Made by a program: the position numbers and the translations under genes. Source: Pseudofrankia saprophytica (GTDB lineage Bacteria; Actinomycetota; Actinomycetes; Frankiales; Frankiaceae). Taken from it: 38,672 nt of DNA. The stretch's first letter is position 1; the number at the start of each line of letters is the position of its first letter. The DNA lies in the NCBI RefSeq assembly GCF_000235425.2, contig NZ_KI912266.1, forward strand, positions 4,414,167 through 4,452,838, read 5' to 3'. Positions 2,728-4,920 of the stretch are shown piece by piece. The notes beneath the pieces are model-generated. The model saw nothing but the letters and a program-made list of their open reading frames with translations. It had not been told where the DNA came from and did no database searches.

Positions 2728-4920
2728 TCAGCCCGTCGTCGAGGTCGAGGCGGACAGGGGCTGGCCGACCTTGCAGCCGTCCCGGTAGACCGCGAGCGCC
2801 TTCAGCCCCAGCCGCCAGCCTTCCAGGTAGATCCGCTCGACGTCGTCCACCGTCGCCGACGCGGGCAGGTTCACCGTCTTCGAGATCGCCCCGGACAGGA
2901 ACGGCTGGACGGCCGCCATCATCCGCACATGTCCCAACGGTGCGATCGACCGCGCGCCGACCGCGCAGTCGAACACGGTCAGGTGCTCGGGCGCGAGGCC
3001 GGGGGCGCCGGCGACATGGCCGTGCTCGGCGACGTGCGCGACGATCGCGGCGACGGCCGTCTCGCCGTGCCCGAGCGCCCGCAGCGCCCGGGCCACGGTC
3101 CGGTTCACGAGGCGCATGACGGAACCGGTCGCGCTGTTCTTGGTCTTGACCAGGGCGAGATCGGGTTCGATGCCCATCGTGTCGCAGTCCATGACCAGGC
3201 CGATCGTCCCGGTGGGCGCGATCAGGCTGACATGGGCGTTGCGCCAGCCGTGGCGCGCGCCGAGCGCCCGGGCCCGCTCCCACTCGGCGGCCGCCACGTC
3301 CAGGATCGCGGCGTCGGCCGGACCCGCGGGACAGGCCTGGGCGCTGGCCTCGGCGTGGCGGCCGACGACGTGGCGGTGTGCGGCCGCGTTGCGGGCGAAG
3401 CCCTCGTACGCGCCGAGCGCGGCGGCGAGCTGCGCGGAGCGCCGGTAGGCGACCGCCGTCATCAGCGAGGTGACGGCCGCCGCCGTTGCCCGGCCCTCCG
3501 TCGAGTCGTAGGCGTACCCCATCGCCATCAGCAGCGCGCCGAGGTTGGCGTACCCGACGCCCACCTGCCGATGGTCACGGGTCACCTGGGTGATCCGCGG
3601 TGTCGGGAGCTCGCCGAATCCGACGGCGATGTCCAGCGCCAGCAGGACGAGCTCGACGGCGGCGACGAACCCGTCGACGTCGAAGCCGCCGTCGGCTCGC
3701 AGGAAGCGCATCAGGTTCAGCGACGCGAGCGTGGCGGCCGAGTCGTCCAGGTGCATGTACTCGCTGCACGAGTTGCTCGCCGAGATCGGCCCGGACTGCG
3801 GGCAGGTGTGCCAGCCGTCGATCGTGTCGGCGTAGTGCAGCCCTGGGTCGGCGCACTCCCAGGCCGCCCGCGCGATCGCCCGGAACAGCTCACGGGCGCG
3901 CACCGTCTCGACGGTCCGGCCGTCCCGGCGCGCCCGCAACGCGAACGGGGCGTCGTCGAGGACGGCCCGCATGAACGCGTCGCTGACCCGCACGGAGTTG
4001 TTGGCGTTCTGGAACTGGACCGAGCCCAGGTCGCGCCCGCCCACGCCCAGGTCGAACCCGGCGTCCCGAAGTACCCGGATCTTGGTCTCCTCGCGGGCCT
4101 TGCACTCGACGAAGTCGACGATGTCGGGATGGTCGACGTCCAGGACGACCATCTTCGCCGCGGGCCGGGTGGCGTTGCCGGTCCGGATGGCGCCGGCGGT
4201 GGCGTCCGCGCCGCGCACGAAGCTCACCGGGCCCGCCGCGGGGCGGCCCGAGGACAGCAGCTCCCGTGACGACCGCAGCCGGGACACGTTCACTCCGACC
4301 CCGGCGCCGCCGCGGAACAGCAGCGTCTCCGCCCGGTACCAGTCCATGATCGATTCGAGGGAGTCGTCGACCGAGAGGATGAAGCAGGACGCCACCTGCT
4401 GGGGAGCCGGCGTGCCGACGTTGAACCAGACCGGGCTGTTGAAGCTGAAGACCTGGTGCACGAGCAGCCAGGTCAGCTCGTGCTCGAACGCCAGCGCGTC
4501 CTCGTCGGAGGCGAAGTAGCCGGCGGACCGTCCCGCTGCGGTGTGAGCGCCGACCACCCGGTCGACGAGCTGGCGCAGCGACCGCTCGCGGCCGGGGGTG
4601 CCGGGGACGCCCCGGAAGTACCGGCTGGTCGCGATGTCGGAGGCGTGTGTGGACCAGAAGTCCGGGAACTCCACGCCGCGCTCGACGAAATAGGCCGTGC
4701 CGTCCCGGCCGGTCAGAACCACGTCCCGCTGCTCCCAGGTCACCTCGTCGTAGGGATGCGCGTCCGGGGTCGTGTGGCGGCGGGATACCTGTATTCCGCG
4801 GCCCGTTCTGGGCTCGGTTTCCTGAGGGTTTCGCGGGGTCCGCCTGGCCTGCCGGGGAAGGCCGTCAAGGCCGTCAAGGCCGTCGACGCCGGGGAACTCG
4901 TCCGTGGCGGGTTCGACCAT
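2728..4920 (-). CDS. nrdJ: Class II (B12-dependent) ribonucleotide reductase relative, C-terminally short
   Basis: The 730-residue product follows actinobacterial adenosylcobalamin-dependent NrdJ throughout, for example FSFNSPVWFN, GGAGVGVNVSR, QNANNSVRVSD, APTGTIGLVMDCDT and the end CKVGQPLS. It then stops, whereas full NrdJ proteins run about 200 residues further and carry the C-terminal CxxC that re-reduces the active site. The radical site N383-x-C385-x-E387 is intact and so is the first redox cysteine C179. The second redox cysteine, expected 11 residues after C385, is Ala396 (codon 3733-3735). GAGGAG eight bases before the ATG fixes the start. Residues 11-21 come from a 9-bp tandem repeat. 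It could be a specialised paralogue with another reductant, an NrdZ-like short form, or an inactive copy. Confidence 0.9.
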   Translation of the reverse strand: MVEPATDEFPGVDGLDGLDGLPRQARRTPRNPQETEPRTGRGIQVSRRHTTPDAHPYDEVTWEQRDVVLTGRDGTAYFVERGVEFPDFWSTHASDIATSRYFRGVPGTPGRERSLRQLVDRVVGAHTAAGRSAGYFASDEDALAFEHELTWLLVHQVFSFNSPVWFNVGTPAPQQVASCFILSVDDSLESIMDWYRAETLLFRGGAGVGVNVSRLRSSRELLSSGRPAAGPVSFVRGADATAGAIRTGNATRPAAKMVVLDVDHPDIVDFVECKAREETKIRVLRDAGFDLGVGGRDLGSVQFQNANNSVRVSDAFMRAVLDDAPFALRARRDGRTVETVRARELFRAIARAAWECADPGLHYADTIDGWHTCPQSGPISASNSCSEYMHLDDSAATLASLNLMRFLRADGGFDVDGFVAAVELVLLALDIAVGFGELPTPRITQVTRDHRQVGVGYANLGALLMAMGYAYDSTEGRATAAAVTSLMTAVAYRRSAQLAAALGAYEGFARNAAAHRHVVGRHAEASAQACPAGPADAAILDVAAAEWERARALGARHGWRNAHVSLIAPTGTIGLVMDCDTMGIEPDLALVKTKNSATGSVMRLVNRTVARALRALGHGETAVAAIVAHVAEHGHVAGAPGLAPEHLTVFDCAVGARSIAPLGHVRMMAAVQPFLSGAISKTVNLPASATVDDVERIYLEGWRLGLKALAVYRDGCKVGQPLSASTSTTG
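4858..4884. repeat. Three tandem copies of 9-bp AAGGCCGTC
   Basis: In-frame perfect 9-bp triplicate inside the 5' end of the nrdJ-like gene; on the coding strand it reads as a repeated Leu/Asp/Gly unit. Copy number could vary between strains without breaking the frame. Confidence 0.8.

Follow-up and report, generated by a model that had tools for sequence, protein, structure and literature searches.

A tail-less class II ribonucleotide reductase paralogue with alanine at the second redox cysteine position in Frankiaceae

The genome of Pseudofrankia saprophytica carries an additional class II ribonucleotide reductase (RNR) gene whose predicted product lacks the cysteine-rich C-terminal tail and has alanine where the second redox cysteine of the active site is expected, and which is still under purifying selection. 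To our knowledge, this two-cysteine pair has been regarded as invariant among class I and class II RNRs. Tail-less NrdJd proteins are a known, if unexplained, gene type; the new element is the Cys-to-Ala change in the genus of the analysed genome, of which we found no mention in the literature searched (portions of mainly open-access articles). Tentatively, and with confidence somewhat short of even, we propose that the gene encodes a maintained, non-canonical and non-reducing NrdJd paralogue, perhaps a partner of the full-length NrdJ. A selected gene without the redox pair would be a natural single-residue test of the RNR radical when the reductant is missing or, alternatively, an example of an RNR turned regulator. 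The Frankiaceae copies offer a ready series of complete, tail-less, and tail-less plus one-cysteine proteins.

Results

The window encodes an extra NrdJd-type protein

We analysed a stretch of 38,672 nt, hereafter the window (G000:C1:4414167-4452838), from a genome of 9,978,592 bases in two contigs. The gene lies on the reverse strand (Table 1) and its GC3 is 0.94, as in the full-length gene. Its product scored 439.7 bits against PF02867 (RNR barrel), 61.5 bits against PF08471 (class II N-terminal domain) and 1087.5 bits against NCBIfam NF005122, whose cut-off is 859; judged by these profiles, it is a class II RNR of the NrdJd type. PF02867 finds three proteins in the genome, namely the window copy, a class Ia NrdA on the same contig (C1) with NrdB adjacent, and a full-length NrdJ on the other contig (C2), to which the core of the window protein is 67% identical. 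A class III NrdD was not found, as PF13597 had no match in the genome. The second complete nrdJ or nrdAB that the earlier note on this DNA had proposed looking for are thus both present, which makes the window gene an extra copy.

Table 1. Features of the short nrdJ gene, in window positions
Feature	Position	Strand	Basis
Tail-less class II RNR (NrdJd-type) paralogue, 730 aa	2728..4920	-	ORF call and translation, domain and family profile matches
Shine-Dalgarno-like GAGGAG, spaced 5 bases from the ATG (4920-4918)	4926..4931	-	Read from sequence
C179 codon, first redox cysteine, kept; Cys in 9/9 short and 28/28 full-length copies	4384..4386	-	Alignment
Residues 246-253, opposite the specificity loop 2 region in the alignment; all nine short copies have R246 and P253, G249N here	4162..4185	-	Alignment
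N383 codon, kept	3772..3774	-	Direct translation, alignment
S384 codon; Ser in 9/9 short, Pro in 28/28 full-length copies	3769..3771	-	Alignment
C385 codon, radical cysteine, kept	3766..3768	-	Direct translation, alignment
E387 codon, kept	3760..3762	-	Direct translation, alignment
A396 codon (GCC), where the second redox cysteine is expected	3733..3735	-	Translation, alignments
C-terminal SASTSTTG and stop; cysteine-rich domain of full-length NrdJ absent after it	2728..2754	-	Alignment
Genome labels: G000, source of the window; G004, Frankia nepalensis CN7 (locus L053); G019, Frankia sp. AgB32; G027, F. canadensis; G028, Frankia sp. AgKG'84/4.

The chain terminates at the boundary of the catalytic core

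The window protein stops 8 residues past KVGQPL, the motif that closes the catalytic core. The crystallised chains 7b9p and 1xjk end close to this point, their matches reaching residue 923 of 925 and residue 640 of 644, respectively. The full-length NrdJ of the same genome extends 264 residues further, to a Cys-rich end. Among the Frankiaceae copies, all nine short proteins have 8 to 43 residues after KVGQ, whereas the 28 full-length ones have 211 to 322. Six cysteines fall within the last 60 residues of 27 of the latter, the exception being a copy truncated where its locus ends. Such a tail has been described in NrdJd as a domain of 150-220 residues that has a zinc site and in which six cysteines are conserved, predominant in the group but not universal (excerpts of PMC5704485). 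The earlier note had the protein ending where others continue for about 200 residues to a CxxC, and it does lack that extension, but what has been lost is this six-cysteine zinc domain and not merely a CxxC.

Using the tail sequence as query, tblastn gave no match at E 10 in the first 5 kb of the window, which include the downstream side of the gene. PF12637, the tail domain family, matches once in the genome, within full-length NrdJ, and a tail encoded by a separate gene is therefore ruled out within the limits of this profile. In this respect the protein differs from the split NrdJa and NrdJb of Pseudomonas aeruginosa, where a core chain likewise has no tail but the tail is provided by a separate gene (excerpts of PMC5704485).

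Alanine occupies the position of the second redox cysteine

In alignments with the full-length NrdJ of the same genome and with Thermotoga NrdJ (PDB 1xjk), A396 falls in the column of the second redox cysteine, 11 residues past the radical cysteine. Both this replacement of the disulfide-partner cysteine and the integrity of C179, N383, C385 and E387 had been claimed in the earlier note, and both held, the latter by direct translation and alignment. These four residues, together with S162 and P163, are present in all 37 aligned sequences (9 short and 28 full-length). Full-length NrdJd proteins (Stackebrandtia, Streptomyces, G000:C2) share the core residues C179, N383, C385 and E387 with the window protein, and differ from it in having both C396 and the six-cysteine tail. 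The Ser-Pro pair characteristic of diphosphate reductases, present here as S162-P163, would be equivalent to S147-P148, described as that pair in Stackebrandtia NrdJd (excerpts of PMC8365446). If so, the offset is 15 and Stackebrandtia C370 should correspond to C385 here, so that the published C370A mutant would hit the radical cysteine and not the partner cysteine.

The short copies of G000 and G004 read NSCSEY(M/L)HLDDSAA, and those of g6, the other genus carrying short copies, read NSCSEYMHLDNSSC, with Cys retained. Thus, when we asked whether orthologues keep Ala396, the only same-genus orthologue (G004) did, while the seven g6 copies had Cys. One refutation named in the earlier note, orthologues with the cysteine, accordingly applies to the clade taken together but not to this single orthologue from the genus. 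The A396 codon is GCC in G000 and GCG in G004, and a change from Cys TGC to Ala GCC requires at least two base substitutions. We scanned 246 genomes of the class with a site-specific pattern allowing Cys, Ala, Ser, Gly or Trp at this position, a pattern that is codon-limited and misses known copies (e.g. G022, G029, G034). It gave 140 matches in 132 genomes, of which 133 had Cys, two had Ala (the short copies of G000 and G004) and five were non-RNR sequences, none resembling the window protein better than E 0.04. A scan of the contig collection for NSCSEY returned 25 matches, four of them RNRs and all four named Frankia, and it too misses known copies, three with an excluded GAA codon and L038, which went unmatched although its codons fit, so that its genome may lie outside the collection.

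Tail loss preceded cysteine loss by parsimony

An intact short copy was present in 9 of the 35 Frankiaceae genomes searched, distributed as two of eight in the window's genus (G000 and G004), seven of 13 in g6 and none of the 14 genomes of five other genera. Both genomes with an Ala copy also have a full-length NrdJ. We built a tree on 678 core positions of the 37 sequences, leaving out L008 (shortened tail), copies split by putative inteins and, except for that of G004, full-length copies without a retrieved locus. The short copies grouped together with support 100 on a long stem (0.30), and within this clade the Ala pair and the seven Cys-bearing proteins each formed a subclade, again with support 100; the placement of the clade among full-length copies was weakly supported (89). 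The tail is absent from nine of nine short copies and the second redox cysteine from only two of nine, the seven g6 copies retaining it. The most parsimonious history is therefore a single loss of the tail that predates the separation of the Ala and Cys copies, followed by loss of the cysteine along one branch. The earlier note had taken the two losses as one coupled adaptation, a reading that this distribution does not support. As for a phage or plasmid source, it was discarded, the top-ranked phage match being 44.5% and the plasmid match 62.8% identical, versus 66-70% for full-length Frankiaceae copies.

Loderer et al. (2017) reported that some Frankia species carry a second NrdJd without the cysteine-rich domain (CRD), and mentioned tail-less copies in Alphaproteobacteria as well (excerpts of PMC5704485). 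Tail loss was therefore already known, and the g6 short copies are probably these published proteins. Like the window copy, the published proteins are extra and tail-less and coexist with a complete copy in the same genome; the window's genus differs from them in that the second redox cysteine is Ala as well. In one g6 genome, G025 (contig C64, L042 7431-7751), the genes that flank the short nrdJ elsewhere in g6 enclose only fragments of it, one of them containing a stop, which suggests that this genome has lost the gene. Another genome, G034, has a short copy and a distant class I NrdA-like match, with no full-length NrdJ in its 92% complete assembly; it may depart from the published rule by which a CRD-less NrdJd accompanies a complete one (excerpts of PMC5704485).

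Other residues distinguish the short clade

In the stretch that aligns with specificity loop 2, the short copies have R(T/A/S)G(G/N/S)A(T/P)RP where full-length proteins have KSGGATRR. PTGTIG is retained in the window copy and is PT(G/R/T)TTG in the seven Cys-bearing short copies. C273 is found in all nine short copies and in none of the 28 full-length ones. At position 716, Cys is present in the 28 full-length and both Ala copies, and Ala in the seven g6 short copies. Cysteine loss is thus reciprocal within the clade, the Ala copies having C716 without C396 and the g6 copies C396 without C716.

The alanine copies are constrained, though less than the full-length gene

The dN/dS ratio between the short copies of G000 and G004 was 0.247 (95% bootstrap 0.181-0.336) versus 0.126 (0.087-0.177) for the full-length copies of the same two genomes, with dS alike (0.262 and 0.286, respectively); the short value fell at or below the full-length one in 0.0025 of 2000 resamples. 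The Ala copies are therefore under purifying selection, about twofold weaker than that on the full-length gene. For the g6 short copies, dN/dS was 0.084-0.142 (9 pairs), compared to 0.058-0.139 (10 pairs) for full-length copies within genera. From these values, the Cys-bearing tail-less copies look as constrained as complete enzymes, and the Ala copies are constrained yet relaxed. Ratios across the duplication were higher, 0.441 for the window copy versus its own full-length NrdJ and 0.312 for a g6 short copy versus its own; the window copy versus a g6 short copy gave 0.277, and full-length copies between the two genera gave 0.202. The higher values across the duplication or the split reflect looser or altered selection on the stem.

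The Ala copies have no in-frame stop and no gap over the 678 core columns, whereas random substitution at half the observed differences, with base composition and indels ignored, produced a stop in 1809 of 2000 simulations. On the other hand, of the 416 core positions that full-length copies share without exception, 85 differ in one or both Ala copies, which gives a probability of 0.40 that all four catalytic residues were retained by chance; their retention is for this reason weak evidence of function. The earlier note had argued for selection and not random decay. The intact frame and the ratio of about 0.25 bear out the first part, and constraint of the size measured is evidence against simple decay; the halved constraint relative to the full-length gene and the remnant in G025 qualify it, and together with the patchy distribution argue for weak selection.

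Neighbouring genes differ between the two alanine loci

Directly after the window nrdJ, on the same strand, lie a YjbR-like ORF (2243-2713), which scores 27.0 bits and so falls below the Pfam cut-off of 30.1, and a FolD gene (1129-2139) of folate one-carbon metabolism; the remaining identified neighbour is a PhzF-like ORF. We know of no role for any of the three in serving an RNR. Comparison of the first 16 kb of the window with the 16 kb locus of CN7 gave no common ORF of at least 60 residues (E 1e-8) besides NrdJ, which rules out a shared operon or partner gene at these loci. At the CN7 locus, ORFs of the CNNM/CBS and Nudix types are present. In g6, the short nrdJ is placed between a DsbA-like/NhaA pair and 5-oxoprolinase-type genes (YcsF, carboxyltransferase; L035 9155-9922, 9887-11278 and 3836-4738). 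We see no hint of a function for the short nrdJ in either set of neighbours. No NrdR box was seen in the window, L001 or L043 with the consensus allowing three mismatches, a result that says little. Membership of a defence system was rejected, as there was no PADLOC match.

Discussion

In class I and II RNRs, a disulfide forms between two active-site cysteines at each turnover (excerpts of PMC4390871). With Ala396, the C179-C396 disulfide cannot form, and hence neither a thiol nor a borrowed tail would restore the normal cycle. Judging from the sequence, normal two-cysteine turnover should be impossible for the window protein, and this copy probably no longer does the usual RNR job. The sequences show that a Frankiaceae clade lost the cysteine-rich tail and that Ala later replaced the second redox cysteine on the branch to the window's genus, with purifying selection still acting on the gene. 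We propose that the protein would still fold as an RNR core and bind nucleotide and AdoCbl, and it may form the C385 radical, but it would be unable to turn over as a normal RNR, either alone or with the tail of another subunit. As the least certain step, it might bind effectors and associate with the full-length NrdJ of the cell, in dimers of both proteins or in higher-order complexes, thus tuning that enzyme. By analogy, a partner role is favoured by findings on Stackebrandtia, where the tail-less core is in a monomer-dimer equilibrium and NrdJd subunits transfer electrons in trans (excerpts of PMC5704485). The same analogy speaks against it as well, since the higher assemblies of Stackebrandtia, with their efficient inter-subunit electron transfer, require the tail (excerpts of PMC5704485), which is absent here. 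Also against it are the location on another contig than nrdJ, the absence of a common neighbour, the presence in only two of eight genomes of the genus and the doubled dN/dS.

Several other explanations have to be weighed against a maintained, non-reducing paralogue. Tail loss might have removed selection on the redox cysteine, the gene being a dispensable duplicate that slowly drifts while its old constraint is still visible. This is less than likely, though a serious contender. In its favour, constraint is about half that of the full-length gene in the same genomes, distribution is patchy, only fragments, one of them with a stop, occupy the same site in G025, and ratios across the duplication are high (0.441 and 0.277 vs 0.202). 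Set against it are the upper bound of 0.34 on dN/dS, although a whole-gene average cannot exclude recent relaxation, a 2.2 kb frame intact in both genomes at a dS of 0.26, the GC3 and the plausible ribosome site. We consider it unlikely that the protein is a working enzyme with another electron supply or product, in which formate or a small thiol replaces the cysteine or the radical drives another nucleotide reaction. The four catalytic residues present in both Ala copies and the PTGTIG motif of the window copy would fit such an enzyme, as would the precedent of class III NrdD, which works with one redox cysteine and formate besides its radical cysteine (excerpts of PMC4390871), and the DTT-driven activity of the tail-less Stackebrandtia enzyme, comparable to that of wild type (excerpts of PMC5704485, in which no native redoxin was found). 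Unlike class III enzymes, however, the window protein is class II by sequence and keeps the class I/II glutamate (E387), which class III enzymes rarely have and for which formate may substitute there as the base (excerpts of PMC4390871). Moreover, DTT in Stackebrandtia acts on an intact cysteine pair, which the window protein does not have. No identified neighbour is known to us to serve an RNR, and none is common to the CN7 locus. The different electron donor suggested in the earlier note is thus unsupported, a changed reductant or chemistry being conceivable at the level just stated. Quite unlikely, too, is a natural one-cysteine enzyme derived from a class II RNR, which would direct a B12-dependent thiyl radical at a nucleotide with an outside reductant or towards a non-deoxynucleotide product; in such an enzyme, the kept C716 could act as a substitute partner cysteine. 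Finally, a sequencing or assembly error, or a frameshift removing the tail, is hardly credible. This was one refutation that the earlier note had foreseen, but in the independent assembly of G004 Ala is encoded by a different codon and the protein stops no more than two residues away from the end seen here, and the first 5 kb of the window gave no tail match.

Two observations concern the other RNR genes of these genomes. The full-length nrdJ match is split by an in-frame insert of ~290-425 codons, within one open frame, in G002, G006, G016, G019, G028 and G035; the insert sites lie near residue 180 in the first five and near residue 571 in G035, that is, at C179 or the PTG loop. From their sequence, these inserts look like inteins. 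In addition, when the window, L043, L001 and L034 were searched with Rfam at gathering thresholds, the single match was a cobalamin riboswitch (RF00174, 61.9 bits) at L001 4111-4339 (G000:C1 near 5451700), upstream of the class Ia nrdAB. It is placed as if B12 shut off the class I enzyme when the class II NrdJ can work.
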